A DNA stretch of 33,167 nucleotides from Desulfobacteraceae bacterium (GTDB taxonomy: Bacteria; Desulfobacterota; Desulfobacteria; Desulfobacterales; ETH-SRB1): assembly GCA_013792055.1 (NCBI GenBank), contig VMSQ01000081.1:1-33167 (forward strand), written 5' to 3'. The position numbers and the translations under genes are program-made. The notes beneath the pieces are model-generated. The model saw only the letters and a program-made list of their open reading frames with translations. It did no database searches and was not told the origin of the DNA. Every line of letters starts with the position of its first letter. Position 1 is the stretch's first letter. This document shows positions 3,855-33,167 of the stretch, piece after piece.

Positions 3855-4689
3855 TATTTTTCTCCGTTAATTTTATTTTGCGTTGAGTAGACCAGTGTAT
3901 TAACTGAGCATAGCCCATAACTGCTATAATTGGAAAAAGACTGGCAAAAGCAATAAGGCCAAAACCATCCAGGGCAGGATTTCGTCCAGGCACGGTGGCA
4001 GACAGTCCAAGACCAAGTGCCGCCACCAGTGGTACTGTCACTGTTGAAGTAGTGACCCCGCCCGAATCATACGCCAGAGCAATGATGCTTTTGGGGGCAA
4101 ATATGGTCTGCACAATAACAATCATATAGCCCACAAGAATGTAAAGATAAAGCGGGGTACCGGTGACAATGCGAAATGTTCCAAGGCTGATTCCAAAAGC
4201 GACTCCTATGGCCACAGTAATTCTTAGGCCCCATTGACTGATCGTGCCGGCTGATACCTCGCTGGCCTTATAAGCCACAGCTATGAGAGATGGTTCGGCA
4301 ATGGTGGTTGCAAAGCCGATCATGGCCGCAAAAAGATACACCCAGCCATACGCCTTCCAGTCCGCGTGGACAACAACTTCCCCTGTACCATAAATAAAGG
4401 CAGGATCAGACAACTGGGTTGCCATGATTTTTCCCAGGGGGAAAAGTGCTTTTTCAAGTCCTGCCAGAAACAGGGCAAGACCAATGACAACATAGATGCC
4501 ACCGACAACAAGACGACGCAGATGGGGAATTGGCTGGCGCAGTACCAGAAGCTGAAAACCGACAATAAGAATAATGATCGGCAGCACATCTCTACAGGTG
4601 GCAAGCAATATTTTGCTGAATTCATATATGAATTCCACGAAAACAGGCCCCTTTTTATCTAAAAAGGATAAGTCCGTAACCCATGACAA
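3844..4689 (-). CDS. DUF1538 membrane protein (second of a pair)
   Basis: An integral membrane protein with about seven hydrophobic helices and the DUF1538 hallmarks [21 protein letters not shown] and [15 protein letters not shown] in its C-terminal half. Function is unknown; the family resembles a transporter half. It is homologous to its upstream neighbour, which shares the [14 protein letters not shown] and [11 protein letters not shown] motifs. The longest frame (ATG 4689) overlaps that neighbour by 35 bp and has no clear ribosome-binding site. A GTG at 4638, preceded by AAGGGG and 17 bp after the neighbour's stop, is the better start and would remove 17 residues. The 3' end overlaps the P-II gene. 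Confidence 0.8.
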
Positions 4690-5389
4690 AGATCATAGGG
4701 AGAAGAGAAGCAAAAGCAATAAGACCAAAACCATCCACAAGAGGGCTTCGTCCTCTGATGGATGAGGCCAATCCTACTCCCAAAGCTGCAACCAAAGGGA
4801 CAGTGATGGTGGATGTGGTGACTCCGCCGGCATCATAGGCTATACCAATAATCTCTTTCGGGGCAATGATGGTCATCAGCATAACAAGAACATAACCGCC
4901 GATGATCAAATAATGAATAGGCCAGCCGCGGAGAATACGCATGACCCCGATAAGGATGGCAAGTCCCACGGAAAAAGCGACAGACATGCGAAGTCCAAAG
5001 GCATATTGAGTTAGAGATTCTTTGCTCGGGTCAATAAGGCCCCCCTGGCCGGCAATTTCTGCTGCTTCCCAAGCCACAGCTATAAGGGCAGGCTCTGCCA
5101 CAGTGGTTGAGAAACCCAGAGCAAAGGCAAAGCAGAGGAGCCAGAAGAGGCTGCCCTTCCTGGCTAAGGCATGGGCCATTGCCTCACCAATGGGAAACAG
5201 GCCCATTTCCAGCCCCTGAACAAACAGGGTAAGACCGGCCACCACAAGAAGAGCACCAAAAAGGACTTCTCCCATTTGCGGTAATGGCTGTTTCAGGACG
5301 ACAATCTGAAAAAAAGCAATAACCAGAATAATGGGCAGCAGATCCGTAAAAGCACTCTTAAGTTTTTGCAGGATTATGGAAATGATCAT
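4655..5389 (-). CDS. DUF1538 membrane protein (first of a pair)
   Basis: A 244-residue polytopic membrane protein. Visible elements are an N-terminal helix ([20 protein letters not shown]), a conserved [20 protein letters not shown] segment and the DUF1538 signature [21 protein letters not shown] followed by [14 protein letters not shown]. It is a close paralogue of the next gene. Members often occur as tandem pairs or fusions, so the two probably form one heteromeric transporter-like complex (inference). The ATG at 5389 is preceded by AGGGA. A 141-bp spacer separates it from the potassium-channel gene, so it may have its own promoter. The substrate is unknown. Confidence 0.8.
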
Positions 5390-5530
5390 TACTTTCCCTA
5401 ACTGTTGTAAAACATCATGATAGTTCTTATTGGTCTTGCCCTCAAAATGGGTTGCCTGGGGGAATTACAGGTTCCTTCGATTCCCACCTCACAATAAATT
5501 TTGCCCCAGACCCTTGCAATGGCTCGATGG

Positions 5531-7222
5531 TTATTGATAGATGTCCATAAGACGTTTTTCCGCATCGCTCGTCCCAATCAAGACCATTTCATCATGTTCC
5601 CCAAGAAGAATCGAGGGTTCGGGGTTTATATTCAATTTATTCTCTCTACCAATAGCTATTACGCTGCAGCCCGTTTGTTTCCGGATTTGACTTTCAGCAA
5701 GAGATTTGCCCGCAAGGGATGAGTGTACAGACGTGCGGAAGATGTTCAGTCCTTCTGCAATCATCAGTATTTTATTGGGTTTTAGAAGATTAATTATGGT
5801 ATTTGCTCCCAGGGAAGCATGTGACATGACAAGGTCTGCTCCAGCCCCGTGCAGTTTGGAAATATTTCGGTCCAGATTTGCCCTGCTGACAATCTGTATA
5901 TCGGATCGCAGTTTACGGCAATAGATGGTGAGATAAATATTCATGGAGTCATCATGAGTGGTAATAATGACAGATGGAGCTTCCCGTATGCCGGCCAGAC
6001 TCAAAGTATCAAAATCGGCAGCATTTCCTTGAATATACTTATTATTTTGAATGAATTTCGGATTCTTCTCCACAACCTTATAAACAACCTGTCGCTCTTC
6101 CAAAATCCGTGCCGCTGCACGCCCGACACGGCCGCCACCCAATATGAGAACAGGAGCATCGGTGTTGTGATAAACACGGCAAATAGAGAAAACCTCGTCA
6201 TATTTTTTGAGCTGTTCAGCCGAGCCGGCGAGTACGAGCACAGTCGTGGAATCGATTCGAGTCTGTGGCTGCGGAATTTCAAATCGGCCTCTCTCCCAAA
6301 GCCCGACAACTGTTGCGCCGGTTTTTTCTCGCAGATTGCTTTGAATGAGCGTTTTTCCCTCAAGTGGTGTTCGCATTGCAGGTGCTTCGGCGATGAGAAG
6401 TTGATCGAATCTTCCGATAACATTTGCCCCCATACTCATTCCGAGCGTTCTTCGCGCCAGGGATTCTCCAAGCATCTTCATAAACTGAAAGACATAAGTG
6501 CTGCCGGCAAGCTGCAGAATATCGATGGAATTATCCGCATCTGCATTAGTAACGATGGGTACTTTTTTAGAGATCTCCCTGACAGTAAAGGATATATTTG
6601 TGTTGGTCATATCATCGTTGTTGGCGACCAGCATGGCAGCACTTTGTATGCGGAGACGTTTATATGTTTCCGGATCACCCAGATCTCCCATGACCACCTT
6701 GAAGTCTAAATCATAAAGTTCTAACGCATGTTGCAAATCGGTGGCGATAATAGCATATTTATAATCATATTTCTTCAGTTTTTCTACGAGGTTTATGGTT
6801 ATGGGATCAAAGCTTGTCAGTATCACGTGTCCTGTTGTGCTTTCCGGCAATTCCCGTGGAGTTTTGGCCCTTGATTGAGCTTCAAGCCATGGGGCATAAA
6901 AAAATTGAATGAAGGTAAAGGGCAACATGATGAGAAGAAAAAGAATGCCGGACATGAGTACAAGCATCGTAAAAGCCTTGCCTAAATCACTCACAAAGGT
7001 GATATCACCGAAACCAAGCGTGGACATCACAGTGAGTGTCCAATAGAAACCTGTAATCCAGCTAAACTCCTTTTCTTCAAAAAGCATTATGAAATGAAAT
7101 AAAACGCTGTATATTACCACCAGCATTGTCAACGCCAAAAGGAACTTGAATAGAAGTTTGAAGTTCCTTTTAGTTGTTCTGCTTCGAGCAAAGTAAAGAA
7201 TTTGGGAGGGAATGAATTTCAT
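5531..7222 (-). CDS. Two-TM potassium channel with two C-terminal RCK (TrkA) lobes
   Basis: Residue numbers refer to the long frame from 7273. Helix 1 is about 42-63, a pore loop carries the selectivity-filter variant TLGFGD (85-90, in place of TVGYGD), and helix 2 is about 100-125. Then follow two TrkA-N/TrkA-C units. The first starts HVILTSFDPITINLVEKL and lacks the glycine-rich nucleotide loop. The second starts APVLILGGGRVGRAAARIL with an intact GxGxxG-type loop and a following acidic strand end (VVEKN). This is the layout of ligand-gated MthK/GsuK-type channels. I chose ATG 7222 (MKFIPSQILYF) because AAAGGT precedes it; the frame is open to 7273. Its neighbours are the DUF1538, P-II and CBS genes on the same strand, suggesting a shared ion or osmotic role. 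Confidence 0.88.
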   Translation of the reverse strand: MKFIPSQILYFARSRTTKRNFKLLFKFLLALTMLVVIYSVLFHFIMLFEEKEFSWITGFYWTLTVMSTLGFGDITFVSDLGKAFTMLVLMSGILFLLIMLPFTFIQFFYAPWLEAQSRAKTPRELPESTTGHVILTSFDPITINLVEKLKKYDYKYAIIATDLQHALELYDLDFKVVMGDLGDPETYKRLRIQSAAMLVANNDDMTNTNISFTVREISKKVPIVTNADADNSIDILQLAGSTYVFQFMKMLGESLARRTLGMSMGANVIGRFDQLLIAEAPAMRTPLEGKTLIQSNLREKTGATVVGLWERGRFEIPQPQTRIDSTTVLVLAGSAEQLKKYDEVFSICRVYHNTDAPVLILGGGRVGRAAARILEERQVVYKVVEKNPKFIQNNKYIQGNAADFDTLSLAGIREAPSVIITTHDDSMNIYLTIYCRKLRSDIQIVSRANLDRNISKLHGAGADLVMSHASLGANTIINLLKPNKILMIAEGLNIFRTSVHSSLAGKSLAESQIRKQTGCSVIAIGRENKLNINPEPSILLGEHDEMVLIGTSDAEKRLMDIYQ

Positions 7223-7305
7223 GATGATTAACCTTTCACTACCATCGAACCAGCAATGGAACCGTGCATTCATTAGTTCAACTTCGGTTGAGAAGGGCGT
7301 CGCTG

Positions 7306-7641
7306 TTACTTTGCTGCAGTCAGCTTTTCGGTTATCCTCTTGACTGTATTGGCATTTAGTTTTCTAGGAATTTTCGTCCAGTGTTCCGAGGTGCCCACGC
7401 CATCATCCCAAGCCATTATGGGCTCAGAGCCAGTTCCATAGAACTCATATTTGTTGTCAAGCGAAGCTGCACCCGCACCAAATCCTACTATTATCCGCGC
7501 CGCAGTGCTTCCCGGGTTATAACTTACGATTTTGACCGTAAGAAGATATCGACCGCTGCGCGCCTCAAATTCCTCTTTTGAATTGATGAGTGAAGCCTCA
7601 TATCCTGAATTTCCCAACCGCTTAATAAGATCGCGTTCCAT
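7306..7641 (-). pseudogene. 3' part of a frameshifted lipoprotein gene
   Basis: This frame carries RDLIKRLGNSGYEASLINSK, a Gly/Ala-rich stretch IIVGFGAGAASLDNKYEFYG, and a C-terminal KLNANTVKRITEKL. The pattern resembles the DUF4410-like envelope lipoproteins, where a glycine-rich strand follows the central region (tentative). The ATG at 7641 is internal and has no ribosome-binding site. Upstream the frame is open only to a TAA at 7668-7666, while the 5' part of the same protein sits in another frame. Joining the two at about 7640-7665 by a one-base shift gives a continuous protein, so this is half of a broken gene or of a sequence with an indel error. Confidence 0.6.
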
Positions 7642-7829
7642 ATATTGACCGATTCGATACGATACTTATACTGGCGTTCGGTCATTTCAGCAGGGTTGCC
7701 CCTGTCGCTTATGACCATGATCTCAATCTTCTGCCCCATATCGCTAAGCGGTGCTCGAGGTGCTCTCGCACATCCTGTAACCAACAGCATACATAAAACC
7801 AAATACATTACAATTGGATACTTTTTCAT
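7524..7829 (-). pseudogene. 5' part of the same lipoprotein gene, with lipobox signal peptide
   Basis: The ATG at 7829 follows AAGGAG with good spacing; the frame is open to 7874, but that longer start has no ribosome-binding site. The N-terminus MKKYPIVMYLVLCMLLVTGC is a lipoprotein signal peptide with lipobox LVTGC, so the product would be a membrane-anchored envelope lipoprotein. Sequence reads sensibly to about ERQYKYR and then becomes unlike protein until the stop at 7524. The missing C-terminal part continues in the 7306-7641 frame. No classical X-XXY-YYZ slippery heptamer is visible at the junction, so a mutation or assembly indel is likelier than programmed frameshifting. Confidence 0.6.
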
Positions 7830-7992
7830 ATCTGTTTCTCTCCTTCTGCTTATTTTTTTGTCTGCATTGAACATTAGTCCCTAAAATCCGCCTAACCAAT
7901 AATAATCTTACAAAATAATTTTATACAACAATTTCCTGTTTAATACAATTTCTGTCTAAATTGGACTAAAAATGGAGCGAAAAGGAACCTTG

Positions 7993-9843
7993 TTACCATG
8001 TTTCATTCGCTGTGACTTCGTAGATCATCTTGTCTTCCGAGCCGAAGTGTTTGCACAGAGTGTCGAAGATCTCAGAGCCATGCATGATAAAATAGCAGCT
8101 TTCAAAAACTTTGGGGTCCACCATCCCCTCAGATGTCAGGTGGTTGAGCCAGTCCTGAAGGGGCTTGTAAAATTCTCCTACAAATATTTGCGGCTTGTAG
8201 TGCCCAATGCCGAGCTTCTTCTTAACGAAAGTTATGGCATTTTCAAGGTTGGTCCCCACTCCGCCTTTAAAATAGATGTCTGCCTCAGTGGCTTCAGATA
8301 AGATTTCCTGTCTTTCCAGCAAATCATTTCGGGCCAAATACGCCGCAAAATCCACATGGGGATAAATATCCACCCCAGGGACCTTCCAGTACACGGCCCC
8401 GGATAGCATACCCAGAGAAGCCGTGCTTTCGGATACAAAGGACATGACACTTCCCGTGTTGCCACCTGTGAGAATGCCGCAAATGCCACCGTGGAAGTCC
8501 TTGAAGGACTTTATGCTGTCTACAATTTCTTTTTGTGTGTCGGCATCTACGTTCCCTGCTGTTCCATAAAACGCAGCAAGCTTTCTTGAGCTGAAGGCCT
8601 CGTTAAATGAGGGTATCACAGAAGACCTCATAAAGAATTGCTTGTACAAGACCAGATCCCCCTGTAAGGGGTTCTTCCAGTAAATCTCCACACCCATGTC
8701 CTGAAGCTTATTCATAAAGGCAAGGTCGTCTGACTTGAAAAAATATTCCTCCTCCGGGGCCCTCATAAAGGTCAGATCCCTGATGAGGCCAAGGTCAGCG
8801 GCTACAATTAGATAAGATGCAAGGAGTCGGTTAGGGAAGTCCTGGACTACCAGCGAGGTATAAGGCCATAGCTCATGTAAGAGTCGGTCGAACCGCTTGT
8901 TTAGCTCAATGAATTTTTGCTCTCCAGTATCACTGATGGCTGCGATGGTGTTTTCATCCACAGTACGCTCTTTGTAAAGTCTCTCCAAAAATGAGGATTT
9001 CAGGTCGATATAGAACTTTTTTTTCACACTGCGTTTTGCTGTAGCTGGTTTATAGACTTCTATATGGACCTTCTCCTTTACGATGTCCTTTTCTCCTCCC
9101 ACGAGTTCAAGATATATGATCCCGTTGGTGTATTTACTCCCTACCCTGGCATCTGTGTGTTCAGGATCGAGAATATAAATCTCGTTTTGCTGTGTAAAAA
9201 GGCTGGTATGCGATATTACCCCGCTTCCCGCCGGCACTATGACCTGGTCCACTTTTTGCTCAGGCTGAGCAAAATAGAAATCTTCACGAGGAATCATTTT
9301 ACCCACAGCAGACTTCAGATAATTGGGCGTTAAGACCATGGGATTGGGCAGATGGATAAAAGGCATAACCGGTACGGCAAGGATGCCTTCCTCCAGCACC
9401 CTGGTTCCCTTGGGAACAATGATGGTGCGGTTTGAAATGAGATTGATCAATTCCTCGGCAGAGTATTTGAGCTCAGGATTTTTCAAATAAATCTTGCCGA
9501 CTTCAAGGCCGGTTTTTATTAACTGGTCAATAGTAAGGCCTGCAGAATATTCTGGAATATAGAACCAGAATCTGGCTTCATAGGATATCTTGTTTCCTTT
9601 GAGTTCAAAAGGACTGAGTTTTTCCTGATTGATGCCGAGTCTTGCCTTTGTGCTATGCAAGTCTGTTGTCAGGCAATCTTTGTTGCGCAGGAAATACTGC
9701 ATCTGTTCGTCGTCAAGATGTACCGAGGCCCGTGCAACGACCTCAGAAGCATCTGCACGAATGATCTTCTCAATCTTACAGTCAGGGCTCTCATTCAGGG
9801 ACACAGCATAATCTCCAAAATTTGAAAGATGAACGTCCAACAT
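7993..9843 (-). CDS. Large protein with C-terminal LOG-like (lysine-decarboxylase-like) domain
   Basis: A 616-residue protein. The last 210 residues read as a Rossmann-like LOG/TIGR00730 domain: KLAAFYGTAGN, then GGICGILTGGNTGSVMSFVS, and a GGVGTNLE motif at 527-534 matching the family's GGxGTxxE nucleotide site. LOG enzymes are nucleoside 5'-monophosphate phosphoribohydrolases, but this N-terminal extension of about 400 residues is not one I recognise. It contains no membrane segment. The first ATG (9843) lies within a dispersed inverted repeat and codes MLDVH from repeat sequence, with no ribosome-binding site, so the true N-terminus may have been replaced or lost. The activity is unproven and the domain call is from motifs only. 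Confidence 0.65.
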   Translation of the reverse strand: MLDVHLSNFGDYAVSLNESPDCKIEKIIRADASEVVARASVHLDDEQMQYFLRNKDCLTTDLHSTKARLGINQEKLSPFELKGNKISYEARFWFYIPEYSAGLTIDQLIKTGLEVGKIYLKNPELKYSAEELINLISNRTIIVPKGTRVLEEGILAVPVMPFIHLPNPMVLTPNYLKSAVGKMIPREDFYFAQPEQKVDQVIVPAGSGVISHTSLFTQQNEIYILDPEHTDARVGSKYTNGIIYLELVGGEKDIVKEKVHIEVYKPATAKRSVKKKFYIDLKSSFLERLYKERTVDENTIAAISDTGEQKFIELNKRFDRLLHELWPYTSLVVQDFPNRLLASYLIVAADLGLIRDLTFMRAPEEEYFFKSDDLAFMNKLQDMGVEIYWKNPLQGDLVLYKQFFMRSSVIPSFNEAFSSRKLAAFYGTAGNVDADTQKEIVDSIKSFKDFHGGICGILTGGNTGSVMSFVSESTASLGMLSGAVYWKVPGVDIYPHVDFAAYLARNDLLERQEILSEATEADIYFKGGVGTNLENAITFVKKKLGIGHYKPQIFVGEFYKPLQDWLNHLTSEGMVDPKVFESCYFIMHGSEIFDTLCKHFGSEDKMIYEVTANETW

Positions 9844-28759: not shown

Positions 28760-30061
28760 ATGAAAATTTATACATACCCTTCTAAATCGGCTGAAAAAAG
28801 GATCGCATCTATTATAAACCGGGGACTTGGTTTTAAGAAAAAGGATTATGATCAAGTTGAGCAGATCCTTGAAGATGTCAGAAAAAATGGCGACAAAGCT
28901 CTCATTAAATACGTAAACGAATTTGACTCCCCCGGCCTTTCAATAAAATCAATCAAGGTAACGCCGGATGAAATTGAAGCTGCTGCAAAAAAAGTCGGAA
29001 TAACATTTATGCGCTCTTTAAACAGAGCAATAGTTCAGATCGAATCATTCCATAAACGTCAATTACGCAATTCATGGATTAATACAGATCGCCCCGGCAC
29101 ATTTCTTGGACAAATAGTTAATCCTGTTGACTCTGCCGGAGTTTACGTGCCCGGTGGGAAGGAAGGGAAAACCCCCCTTGTATCTTCTGTCCTTATGGGT
29201 GCGATTCCGGCAAAAATAGCCGGTGTAAAGTCAATAGCAATGGCTACCCCTCCCACAAAAGACGGAAGTATAAATCCCCATCTTCTTATTGCTGCAAAAA
29301 AAGTAGGCATAAAAGAAATTTACAAACTTGGAAGCGCATGGGCAATTGCCGCATTAGCATACGGAACCGAAACAGTTCCAAAAACCGACGTCATAGTCGG
29401 ACCCGGAAATATTTATGTTACTTTGGCTAAAAAAATTGTTTCAGGAACAGTCGGAATAGATATGATAGCTGGCCCAAGTGAAATACTGATAATCGCGGAC
29501 AGCACGGCAAACCCGGAATTCACAGCGGCTGATCTGCTTTCACAGGCAGAACATGACGCTATGGCATCCGCTATACTTGTAACAAATTCCGAAGAAACAG
29601 CAAGGGCGGTTGATATAGCAGTAGAAGAGCAGCTAAAATATCTGGACAGAAAAGATATAGCCGGAAAGTCTCTTGACAGCTATGGAGCAATTATAGTTAT
29701 GCTTGATCTCCAGGCCTGCTTTGAACTCGCCAACAGGATAGCTCCCGAACACCTTGAGCTTCACATAGACAACCCTTTTGAGCATATCGGAAAGATAAGG
29801 AATGCCGGTGCCATATTTGTCGGTGATTACACGCCGGAGCCTGTCGGCGATTATATGGCCGGGCCAAACCATGTACTTCCTACCGCAGGAGCAGCCAGGT
29901 TTGCGTCAGCCCTTTCTGTAGATAACTTTGTCAAAAAGACAAGCATAATCCATTATTCAAAAGAAGCCTTCAAAAGAGAAGCAAAAGACATCATCCGTCT
30001 TGCAGAAATCGAAGGACTTGATGCGCATGCGAATTCCATAAAGATACGACTAAAAATATAA
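28760..30061 (+). CDS. hisD: Histidinol dehydrogenase
   Basis: At 433 residues it has the usual length. Hallmarks are AGVYVPGGKEGKTPLVSSVL, KIVSGTVGIDMIAGPSEILI, LLSQAEHDAMASAIL (zinc ligand His) and APEHLELH, then VGDYMAGPNHVLPTAGAARF with catalytic-region residues. It catalyses the last two oxidations of histidine synthesis, histidinol to histidine, with NAD+ and zinc. ATG 28760 follows AAGGT. No other his gene is adjacent. It is the last core gene before the cassette-like region to its right. Confidence 0.96.
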   Translation: MKIYTYPSKSAEKRIASIINRGLGFKKKDYDQVEQILEDVRKNGDKALIKYVNEFDSPGLSIKSIKVTPDEIEAAAKKVGITFMRSLNRAIVQIESFHKRQLRNSWINTDRPGTFLGQIVNPVDSAGVYVPGGKEGKTPLVSSVLMGAIPAKIAGVKSIAMATPPTKDGSINPHLLIAAKKVGIKEIYKLGSAWAIAALAYGTETVPKTDVIVGPGNIYVTLAKKIVSGTVGIDMIAGPSEILIIADSTANPEFTAADLLSQAEHDAMASAILVTNSEETARAVDIAVEEQLKYLDRKDIAGKSLDSYGAIIVMLDLQACFELANRIAPEHLELHIDNPFEHIGKIRNAGAIFVGDYTPEPVGDYMAGPNHVLPTAGAARFASALSVDNFVKKTSIIHYSKEAFKREAKDIIRLAEIEGLDAHANSIKIRLKI

Positions 30062-30219: not shown

Positions 30220-30292
30220 GTCTAACTACCTGAGTTGTTACCAATAATATCAAATATCGTTGAATTATTTCTTAACATTTAAATTGTTCGCC
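30220..30292 (+). other. Candidate attC site 0 (left border of cassette 1)
   Basis: R'' GTCTAAC (30220-30226, a perfect RYYYAAC), 5-nt spacer TACCT, L'' arm 30232-30248, 15-nt loop, L' arm ATTATTTCTTAACATTT (30264-30280), 5-nt spacer AAATT, R' GTTCGCC (30286-30292). The arms pair through TGTTA and AATAAT with unpaired bases between. Recombination would fall after G30286. The 158 bp between hisD and this site hold no gene, so the preceding cassette, if any, is empty or decayed. Confidence 0.5.
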
Positions 30293-30308
30293 CACGAAGG
30301 ATGAATAA

Positions 30309-31355
30309 TTGACAACTTCAGATGTTCGTTGGTCATGCACAGCCCAATTGGACCTCCTTGGATTCTCAAATCACCTTGCGGTGACAAATTGGGATATAAG
30401 AACCCAAACCGGAGTTCAGGCTATTGAGAGGCTGTCGTCGTTGGAAGAAGCCATACAACTTTTTGAGCAAGAGAAAGTTGAATTCCCCGAACTATATCCC
30501 AGCGGGCTACAATATATTCGTTTCAATGATGCTCTATTTCTTGGAATAGATGTCGAGTACCTTAACCCCCCACCTAGCCAAACCAATTTAACTGGCGGGT
30601 ACTCAATCGACCAATTGCGCAAAATACATCCCCAGGAAGGCCAAACAGCTTTTAAAGGAACAACGGCAGAATCAGGCGGTGATGTCGCAAAACTCCTTGG
30701 ACTGGTGGCAAGAATACATACCCACGTAAATGGGCGTGAAGCAGAAAAAAGCTTTCCCGGATGTCGTACTGTGGTAGCTTCCGGTATGCGTAAGTGTTTC
30801 GAAGACCGGAAAGGCGTTGACGATTTCTTTTCCGCGAACTTCTCAGTCTCGACCGCCTTTGAAGCAGAAAAGAAGGGTAATTCGGTAGGGTTAAAAGACA
30901 ACAACCTTTATGTCGAAGACGATGTTGCGATGGCTATTTCCTACTGTCAGCCTTGTCACGCTATCTTGGGGTTTTCCAAGTTTATTCGCACCGATTCGTC
31001 CCTTATCGACCCGTACTCATACCAGTGTGCCCAGAAGAACGCGATCTCTCTACCTCGCGTTTTTTATAGAGTTCTGGAGCCGATTGTTTTGGATATTATG
31101 AAGAAACGTCTTACCTTCAGACGCCTGGACCCAGCGGTCTTAACAAATCTTCAGCTATTCAAGGACTATCAACGATTCTCAACAGATCCAAAAGAAAAGG
31201 GCCAACTTGAAAAAGAGATATGTGATTCTCTTTTCGCTTCAACCCCGTCGCTCGACGAGGTAAACAAAAGACAGAAGATTATGGAGTATCCTTTCTTATC
31301 CCTGAGATTCAGCCTGGATAACGATTACTCCGAGTTCTTTGATGGGGAACGATGA
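30309..31355 (+). CDS. Hypothetical protein, possible divergent class III cyclase fold (cassette 1)
   Basis: A 348-residue soluble protein starting at TTG 30309, with AAGGA at 30297-30301. I do not recognise a named family. Three segments resemble the order seen in cyclase-like proteins: LDLLGFS (14-20, compare D-x-x-GF metal motif), RFNDALFLGID (71-81, compare F-S-D-S strand) and CRTVVASGMR (152-161) followed by NFSVSTAFEAEKKGNSVGL. If right, D15 and D74 would be metal ligands. The C-terminal 130 residues are charged and helical. No signal peptide or membrane helix. It lies between attC-like sites 0 and 1 and is the first gene after hisD. The cyclase idea is an inference from short motifs only. 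Confidence 0.6.
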   Translation: MTTSDVRWSCTAQLDLLGFSNHLAVTNWDIRTQTGVQAIERLSSLEEAIQLFEQEKVEFPELYPSGLQYIRFNDALFLGIDVEYLNPPPSQTNLTGGYSIDQLRKIHPQEGQTAFKGTTAESGGDVAKLLGLVARIHTHVNGREAEKSFPGCRTVVASGMRKCFEDRKGVDDFFSANFSVSTAFEAEKKGNSVGLKDNNLYVEDDVAMAISYCQPCHAILGFSKFIRTDSSLIDPYSYQCAQKNAISLPRVFYRVLEPIVLDIMKKRLTFRRLDPAVLTNLQLFKDYQRFSTDPKEKGQLEKEICDSLFASTPSLDEVNKRQKIMEYPFLSLRFSLDNDYSEFFDGER

Positions 31356-31362
31356 ATGAATG

Positions 31363-31433
31363 GGCTAACCCGGCAGTCCACCTGACAGGTGTTACGCTGC
31401 GCTTCACACCTGCCGGTAACTTCATCGCTATCT
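31363..31433 (+). other. Candidate attC site 1
   Basis: R'' GGCTAAC (31363-31369), spacer CCGGC, L'' arm AGTCCACCTGACAGGTGT (31375-31392), loop TACGCTGCGCTTC, L' arm ACACCTGCCGGTAACT (31406-31421), spacer TCATC, R' GCTATCT (31427-31433). The arms pair as AGT, ACC and CAGGTGT blocks, with two extra bases in the left arm, as in known attC sites. R' departs from GTTRRRY at two positions. Both spacers are 5 nt. Confidence 0.6.
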
Positions 31434-31461
31434 TTTTATAAAATAAATGTGGAGACATAAA

Positions 31462-32445
31462 ATGATTTTTGAACGCCAAGATTCCCACTATCTAAGTCGA
31501 TATGTAGGTAACTATAATAATTGGCTTGCAAAAAATGTTGATGATCCAGTAAGAACAATATTGAGCGTAAGACCTAAGGAACTAGTAGAAATTTTTGAGG
31601 ATATTAAATTGTTAAGGGATGATTTATCGAAAACTCCGTCTGATTTTATTGAATCAAGATTGTTCCCTCTTTTAAAAAAAGCAATTATACATACAAGACG
31701 CTCTGAAGCTTATAATATTGAACAGAGAAGTGGCTTTACGTTTAATCATAATTTAAGAATCAAATTAGAGAATGAATTGACACCTTTTAACAATTTAATG
31801 AGCCACGATTGGTTTAAAAATACTAAATTACCTCGTTTTCCAAAACTCACAGATTTTATTTCTATTCAACATGCTGAAACCTATCTTATAGAAAATAAAA
31901 AATTATCATTATATAAAAGAATCTATGATGAAAAATTTCATATCTTAAATGCACCTTCATTATTTCTTCCTGATTTAAGTTATTATCGCATTACTTGTGA
32001 ATTAAGGGATTTATCTCTCTGTGTTGCTTATATTGATATCGATGATTTTAAACAATTTAATACAGAATTTGGTGAACCGATAGTAGATAGGGATATCCTA
32101 CCTTCCTTTATGAGTGCTTTAGAGGCTCATGTATACCTTCGTGGACATGCTTATCGCTATGGAGGAGATGAATATGTGGTATTACTTCCTAATATGTCAT
32201 CTTTACAAGCCTGCCAATTCCTAGAATCTTTTCAAAATAAACTAGAAAGCTTAAAATTTTTTAAAATTAATAAGCAGTTAGAGGTTTCGATTGGCATCCT
32301 TGAAGTATCTGAAAATGATATTGAAACCGATCGGGAAATTGAAGAAAAGGCAGCGAAAGCAAAAAATTTTGCTAAAGACAATAAAAAGAATTGCATTGCT
32401 TTTTATAAGGGACAAGAGATTTCTATATATCCAGACAAAAGCTAA
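31462..32445 (+). CDS. GGDEF-domain protein (cassette 2)
   Basis: A 327-residue protein from ATG 31462, chosen because GGAG precedes it; an ATG at 31447 has none. Long-form numbering: residues 1-185 are a charged, mainly helical region with no recognised domain or membrane helix. The GGDEF domain begins at about 190 with AYIDIDDFKQFN (194-205) and has the active-site loop RYGGDEYVVLLP (237-248), so metal and GTP residues are present. The usual GHxxGD helix is replaced by GEPIVDRD. It could be a diguanylate cyclase or a GGDEF-related nucleotide polymerase with a different product. No EAL domain is attached. The stop codon lies inside the R'' box of attC site 2. It is AT-rich relative to hisD. 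Confidence 0.85.
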   Translation: MIFERQDSHYLSRYVGNYNNWLAKNVDDPVRTILSVRPKELVEIFEDIKLLRDDLSKTPSDFIESRLFPLLKKAIIHTRRSEAYNIEQRSGFTFNHNLRIKLENELTPFNNLMSHDWFKNTKLPRFPKLTDFISIQHAETYLIENKKLSLYKRIYDEKFHILNAPSLFLPDLSYYRITCELRDLSLCVAYIDIDDFKQFNTEFGEPIVDRDILPSFMSALEAHVYLRGHAYRYGGDEYVVLLPNMSSLQACQFLESFQNKLESLKFFKINKQLEVSIGILEVSENDIETDREIEEKAAKAKNFAKDNKKNCIAFYKGQEISIYPDKS

Positions 32446-32511
32446 CCACAGCATTCACTTGATGCCAATTCCGCTATCGCTTTATTGGTGTTGGTTATGC
32501 AATCGTTATAA
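32440..32511 (+). other. Candidate attC site 2
   Basis: R'' AGCTAAC (32440-32446, including the stop codon of the GGDEF gene), spacer CACAG, L'' arm CATTCACTTGATGCCAAT (32452-32469), 14-nt loop, L' arm ATTGGTGTTGGTTATG (32484-32499), spacer CAATC, R' GTTATAA (32505-32511). CAT and CCAAT pair cleanly with the right arm; the middle is poorly paired. This is the weakest of the four by stem, but spacer lengths and box positions fit. Confidence 0.4.
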
Positions 32512-32532
32512 CTCAAATAGGAATAAATTATC

Positions 32533-33015
32533 ATGGATAGCTTAACCATCGTAGGTACAATAATCGGAAGCGCTGCATTCGGGGCAGTCGCTGGTAAATT
32601 GCTGGATGCGTTTATCCTCTCTCGGATCAGTGATAAATATGAAAGGAAGAAATGGCTTCGTCAAACCAAAATTGAAGCCTTTACTCAACTTACTGAACAA
32701 ATGCTGTCTCTTGGTATAAAAGGACAATTGCATGATGATCCATGGCGATTTCGTGCTTTAGCTGCAAAAGCAATTCTGTTATTAGACGATCCAATATTAA
32801 TCAAAAATATTCATATCTTCATAGACGAGCTATACAAAATAAATACTGGATTATCTGCTGCAATTTCGAATCTTCCTGAAGATTTTTCTATAGAATTACC
32901 CAGCGGAGCAAAAGCTACTAAGAAACATTTTGAAAAGATTTTCGCTTTAAATGAAATGGAAAAGCAAGCCATTAATATCGCAAATAAGTTAGGCGAAAAT
33001 TTAAGGAAATCTTAA
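32533..33015 (+). CDS. Hypothetical protein with N-terminal membrane helix (cassette 3)
   Basis: A 160-residue protein from ATG 32533, with AGGA about 10 bases upstream. Residues about 3-30 (LTIVGTIIGSAAFGAVAGKL then LDAFIL) form one hydrophobic helix with small residues, followed by a positively charged stretch (SDKYERKKWLRQTK) that should stay in the cytoplasm. The remaining 120 residues are predicted helical and soluble. No named domain is recognised; the layout (one TM plus helical bundle) is frequent among small cassette and defence-island proteins of unknown role. It is AT-rich and sits between attC-like sites 2 and 3. Confidence 0.7.
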   Translation: MDSLTIVGTIIGSAAFGAVAGKLLDAFILSRISDKYERKKWLRQTKIEAFTQLTEQMLSLGIKGQLHDDPWRFRALAAKAILLLDDPILIKNIHIFIDELYKINTGLSAAISNLPEDFSIELPSGAKATKKHFEKIFALNEMEKQAINIANKLGENLRKS

Positions 33016-33023
33016 AAACATAA

Positions 33024-33086
33024 TCATAACGAATAAGGATAGATTGTGTGAGCGCAGCGAACCACAATCTTATCCGGTTGTTGGAC
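33024..33086 (+). other. Candidate attC site 3 (right end of cassette 3)
   Basis: R'' TCATAAC (33024-33030), spacer GAATA, L'' arm AGGATAGATTGTG (33036-33048), loop with GAGCGCAGCGAA, L' arm CACAATCTTATC (33063-33074), spacer CGGTT, R' GTTGGAC (33080-33086, a perfect GTTRRRY). The stem is strong with a one-base bulge. Its loop word GCGCAGCG is the inverse of CGCTGCGC in site 1. A frame open from GTG 33048 to the window edge crosses this site and is not called as a gene. Confidence 0.6.
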
Positions 33087-33167
33087 AAGCTCGGTGTATC
33101 TGCATATTCTGTATATAAGGAAATATCTTTTTTTGAACAAGGGGTAGGAAGTGCGGTTTTAAAAAGC

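Follow-up and report, generated by a model that had tools for sequence, protein, structure and literature searches.

How does an array of gene cassettes come to lie beside a housekeeping gene in a genome in which no integron integrase is visible? The question is raised by the window analysed here, which is the whole of contig C211 (33,167 bp, ending at 33167) from a draft Desulfobacteraceae genome of 340 contigs (3.17 Mb, 95.8% complete). The flank upstream of the array carries a class-V aminotransferase gene and hisD, the nearest named matches of the latter (87 to 70%) being from Deltaproteobacteria and Desulfobacterales metagenome-assembled genomes. Downstream of hisD lie three same-strand open reading frames (ORFs) with palindromic spacers between them, just where the first-pass annotation, made from the letters alone, had placed them. 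An Rfam scan of the window gave no matches. The features are collected in Table 1.

Table 1. Features of the hisD-proximal cassette array (window coordinates; attC sites and cassettes as predicted from sequence)
Feature	Coordinates	Strand	Remarks
hisD (histidinol dehydrogenase)	28760..30061	+	Pfam PF00815, E 1.5e-169; last chromosomal gene before the array
attI remnant (solo, without adjoining intI)	30242..30287	+	attI model R2, E 1.3e-7, model positions 63-108
Cassette 1	30287..31427	+	ORF 30309-31355, 348 aa, TTG start; left boundary GTTCGCCC against R'' GGGCTAAC at 31362, 4/5 match beyond the core
attC of cassette 1	31362..31434	+	degenerate; R'' GGGCTAAC, R' GCTATCTT, core GCT instead of GTT; fold z -1.6
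Cassette 2	31428..32505	+	ORF 31447-32445, 332 aa, GGDEF-domain protein; left boundary GCTATCTT against R'' AAGCTAAC, 4/5 match
attC of cassette 2	32439..32512	+	weak; R'' AAGCTAAC, R' GTTATAAC; fold z -0.3
Cassette 3, left part	32506..33030	+	ORF 32533-33015, 160 aa; boundary match 3/5; R'' box ATCATAAC at 33023-33030
IS91-like + tyrosine-recombinase element, left end	33031..33167	-	lodged in R'' of the cassette 3 attC; continues to the contig end

Evidence for a cassette array

A genuine cassette begins, just past the crossover, with bases (TTRRRY) that complement the R'' box at its far end. Ten predicted units were compared in this respect, and 39 of their 50 variable positions match, compared with a permuted mean of 21.0 and a maximum of 37 in 200,000 permutations. 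Because the R'' boxes were picked by eye the agreement is inflated, and one of the units (c4) later proved to be the IS91-like element. For the window's three cassettes by themselves the count is 11/15, the highest among just six pairings. This boundary complementarity is the decisive evidence for the array, and structure alone is not. With a small HattCI-like scorer, clear attC sites rank high and background matches lie near 27-30; among the window's four palindromes a high structure score was obtained only at 33023-33087 (28.2). A score of 28 is not decisive by itself because the background reaches similar values, both in six shuffles (highest 30.5, next 23.2) and in the upstream 30 kb (27-29). 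The bottom-strand folds of the sites at 31362 and 32439 are both weak (Table 1), while the attC of cassette 3, once its flanks are rejoined across the element that interrupts it, adopts the classic bottom-strand fold of an attC (-15.9 kcal/mol, z -5.66).

These findings bear out the proposal that the region is a set of gene cassettes. The array is real, and the middle two of the four palindromes that had been taken for attC sites are degenerate attC sites; the leftmost is an attI remnant and the rightmost the end of an element lying inside an attC, as set out below. By eye, the arms of the site at 31362-31434 resemble those of the attC of an OXA-21 cassette in locus L067 (AACCCGGCAGTC and GCCGGT-ACTTC).

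An ordinary three-gene operon with chance or REP-type palindromes is the least probable of the readings weighed here. The sites at 31362 and 32439 fold hardly better than shuffled sequence, if at all, and simple palindrome scans return much background, as that reading would have it; the boundary complementarity, the very good fold of the rejoined attC and the continuation of the array into a further contig (C175) speak against it. So does the distribution of the cassette-1 protein, which was found in one of 291 genomes of the order, namely its own. The fixed operon in orthologous genomes that the first-pass annotation had named as its refutation is thus not what is seen: this protein is absent from the 290 other genomes, and the neighbours of hisD are not the same in relatives.

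Functions for the cassette genes, all three of which had been called unknown, emerged in one case. The cassette-2 protein carries a GGDEF domain (PF00990, E 9.4e-17; TIGR00254, E 1.7e-17), and the description stands for the other two: searches of Pfam, PADLOC and NCBIfam gave no match for the cassette-1 protein, and no significant family match was obtained for the 160-aa protein of cassette 3. PADLOC assigned none of the window's three proteins to a defence family.

An IS91-like element inside the attC of cassette 3

The attC of cassette 3 is interrupted in its R'' box, and the remainder of the site lies beyond the inserted element, on C175. The right end of the window and the end of this 8-kb contig share 141 identical nucleotides, a common word length in assembly. 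The C211-C175 join is likely rather than certain, because 133 nt of the 141-nt overlap are also found at the end of contig C164; compared by eye, the R'' box of C164 makes a poorer fit to the rejoined attC than does the window's. The repetitive end of the element probably broke the contig. On C175 there are more small ORFs, most of them co-oriented with the array, and clear attC sites (among them GTCCAACAAGACGCTTCAGTGG...CCACTGAGCTCCCCGTTATAT, CGCTAACAATGGGATGAACCCGG...CCGGTTATCCCAAACGGTTATGC and GAATAACAAACCCAATTCAGCCG...CGGCTGATTAGTAATGTTATAT; positions of clear sites in the joined sequence are 35334, 39370 and 39912), as the first-pass annotation had anticipated in looking for further sites at the right. 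One C175 cassette (L020:175-906) encodes a CAP12/Pycsar-type TIR effector (PF10137, E 4.5e-21), beside which no adjoining cyclase was seen.

The element is approximately 2.3 kb long, and its genes lie on C175 (L020:5860-7816) on the minus strand relative to the array. It belongs to the IS91 family, its Y2 transposase having the zinc-binding domain of that family (NF033538, 383.6 bits; also PF04986 and PF14319); a tyrosine recombinase is split between two frames at an A-run. A 92% copy of the element with the same two ends lies inside a different attC (G002:C16). Matches to the element end number 28, in 7 of the 8 genomes of the genus. Of 18 different sites of insertion within the genus, 15 have AAC immediately next to the left junction, and in three cases the right end runs into an attC body.

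The clear hairpin at 33023-33087, with its attC-like boxes, is the terminal hairpin of this element. The alternative in which the hairpin is the attC of a cassette and the element is that cassette was rejected, the G002:C16 copy having fixed the element ends. The element end nevertheless reads as an attC on the element's own strand, on which the element begins with G^TTGGAC and ends with GTCCAAC...hairpin...G^TT; the element may therefore itself be cassette-like. At two other loci (L074 and L076), the cassette position immediately next to attI is taken by a gene for an IS91-family transposase, and a matching R'' is found 1.5-1.8 kb downstream.

An attI remnant at the left end of the array

The leftmost palindrome, 30220-30292, has AAC/GTT boxes and some symmetry. 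As an attC it scores 23.6 and its DNA fold has a z of -1.1; this assignment was rejected, since bases 30242-30287 are an attI remnant. They were recognised with a sequence-only attI model (R2) built from 20 copies, the window copy being left out. The remnant comprises 46 of the 109 model positions, ends in TTGAATTATTTCTTAACATTTAAATTGT, and places the attI crossover G^TT between 30286 and 30287. It is 96% identical over its 46 nt to a copy on contig C258 of the same genome.

In two genomes of the same genus (G006:C427 and G007:C183), the counterpart of these 46 nt has an intact intI on one side and the first cassette on the other, and the family consensus occupies this position in five genomes (these two together with G012:C55, G016:C185 and G068:C91). 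Because the consensus adjoins intact intI even in G068, which lies outside the family and in which attI again directly adjoins a full intI, the sequence at 30242-30287 is assigned by homology to the attI of one IntI lineage (the G006:C427 type), of which the window copy is a partial homologue. In G006, contig C104 carries an attI-derived copy approximately 1 kb 3' of hisD, and immediately behind hisD a deleted attI can be made out by eye.

This homology bears on whether a trans-acting IntI put the cassettes into a non-classical genomic site (attG). Such insertion has been described, as discussed in PMC12901181 and PMC12444791, and an array without intI that adjoins a housekeeping gene is in keeping with it; a boundary homologous to a known intI-adjacent attI makes a generic site unnecessary, and we regard this explanation as highly improbable.

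Solo attI copies across the family

The same attI recurs far beyond this locus. A search with the attI model found 78 copies in 16 of the 17 genomes of the family, with up to 11 in a single genome; among the 146 genomes of the order the sequence is otherwise nearly absent, G068 excepted. Four of 64 copies examined stand beside a full-length cognate intI, and approximately 15 of the 64 show only short N-terminal intI matches, mostly of 40 aa or fewer and several of them weak. The solo unit consists of attI and 0-40 codons of the intI 5' end. Many copies have an identical truncated left part, with 60-180 nt in common, at unrelated loci across three genera, and tblastx gave no match between the farther flanks of these copies; a few pairs of copies are orthologous loci. 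Because the same left part recurs amid unrelated flanks, the sequences argue that the truncated units have been multiplied as units.

Cassettes accompany some of these sites. Copies that have a GTT boundary and sufficient sequence, and so could be tested, number 35; in 11 of them an R'' box within 3 kb matches the attI-side boundary exactly, where permutation gave a mean of 1.6 and a maximum of 6 in 1000; exact matching was adopted after a mean-score test for attC behind solo attI had proved weak (6.55 against 6.05-6.40). Contig C75 of the genome studied here carries one solo attI with a matching R''. At the matched sites the cassette boundaries start exactly at G^TT, as putative IntI recombination would produce.

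On one contig, L136 (G007:C243), three solo attI copies lie within 4622-8470. They separate what by eye are an ATPase-RloB-like pair, a toxin-antitoxin-like pair and a further gene, and a 178-nt repeat is common to the left flanks of two of them.

Loss or absence of the integrase

At the hisD locus no intI stands beside the attI, and the array is not a complete integron. The observation that no integrase is visible extends to the genome: no TIGR02249 match exceeded the cut-off, and no intI match was found at E<1e-20. As the genome is a draft, the missing intI may reflect an assembly gap. On C258 a broken intI start is found at the contig end. Two similar broken intI-like pieces, with upstream sequence in common, occur at different loci of the same genome, on C317 (L018 4191-4507) and C15 (L019 3610-3711). 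Cognate intI genes (89% identity or more) are present in 4 of the 17 genomes (G006, G007, G012 and G016), and many of the solo attI sites may for that reason be relics.

The main rival explanation is an ordinary decayed integron, in which a complete intI-attI-cassette set after hisD lost its integrase in place. Other attI copies retain 17-40 intI codons, the broken pieces on C317 and C15 fit such a history, and CALINs have been proposed to be degraded integrons (PMC9024848). Between hisD and 30242, however, no intI remnant was recognised, and no intI of intermediate length, such as a pseudogene caught partway in decay, was found beside attI in the 64 copies examined. The same truncated units at unrelated loci and in different genera, which separate decay events would not be expected to produce, argue against local loss of intI, and we consider it unlikely.

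The best reading is instead that solo attI units are scattered landing pads for cassettes, which an integrase from elsewhere serves or once served. For the locus itself we favour, with a probability of roughly three in four, a cassette array anchored at a solo attI downstream of hisD, captured by an IntI from elsewhere and later invaded by the IS91-like element. This attI being a scattered short copy without intI, the integrase would have reached it from another place in the cell, at present or formerly. In the standard integron reaction IntI would cleave the folded bottom strand of an attC and join it at the attI G^TT (30286/30287), and capture of cassette circles in this way would leave cassettes 1, 2 and 3, and probably those of C175, in one orientation. 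Later, the IS91-like/tyrosine-recombinase element would have entered the cassette 3 attC at its R'' box. The sequences themselves show the identity of the attI, the boundaries of the cassettes, the attC that is interrupted and the solo copies across the family; the action of IntI in trans and the manner in which solo attI units multiply and spread are the inferred parts of this model. A wider and more tentative proposal, to which we give somewhat less than even odds, is that solo attI is a non-autonomous repeat family, the integron counterpart of a MITE, which turns scattered chromosomal loci into landing pads, so that one integrase acting in trans would run a distributed integron extending over many sites in the genome.

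Relation to known systems

The array is a CALIN by definition (PMC9024848), having at least two attC sites (those at 31362 and 32439 by boundary logic, together with the clear sites on C175), same-strand cassettes and no integron integrase nearby; the first-pass annotation was right to see a CALIN-like edge here. It differs from the CALINs of IntegronFinder (PMC9024848) in starting at a recognisable attI, which also stands alone at dozens of loci. CALIN counts are inflated by draft genomes, and IntegronFinder detects attI for class 1 only (PMC9024848), so that solo attI sites of the present kind would be missed.

Truncated attI sites that have moved elsewhere and remain usable by IntI are known from the Delta-attI-type cassettes of class 1 and 2 integrons (PMC12901181). 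Those fragments are mostly short (14-18 nt for attI1) and replace attC at the 3' end of a cassette inside an array, whereas here approximately 107 nt of attI with the start of intI lie upstream of cassettes at scattered chromosomal loci. The Xanthomonas CALINs away from the ilvD integron likewise occupy fixed, conserved places in the chromosome at a distance from intI; the passages of PMC12444791 consulted report no attI there.

The inserted element invites comparison with IS elements that target attC, such as the IS1111-attC group. It shares with them a position inside attC and a sequence preference, but has an IS91-family HUH transposase and a partner tyrosine recombinase, enters at R'' and bears a terminal hairpin whose opposite strand can be read as an attC. 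Elements targeting attC are frequently observed, according to PMC12444791.

No description of dispersed solo attI was found in the open-licence papers searched. An integron is usually described as a single platform that unites the array with an integrase gene and the attI belonging to it. In this family, attI has been multiplied without the integrase: there are 78 copies among 17 genomes, and roughly one in three of the testable copies has a matching cassette. Were the system active, some of the CALINs now counted could be anchored at attI, since current software seeks attI in class 1 only, and one integrase could bring about cassette capture, and possibly expression, at many places in the chromosome.
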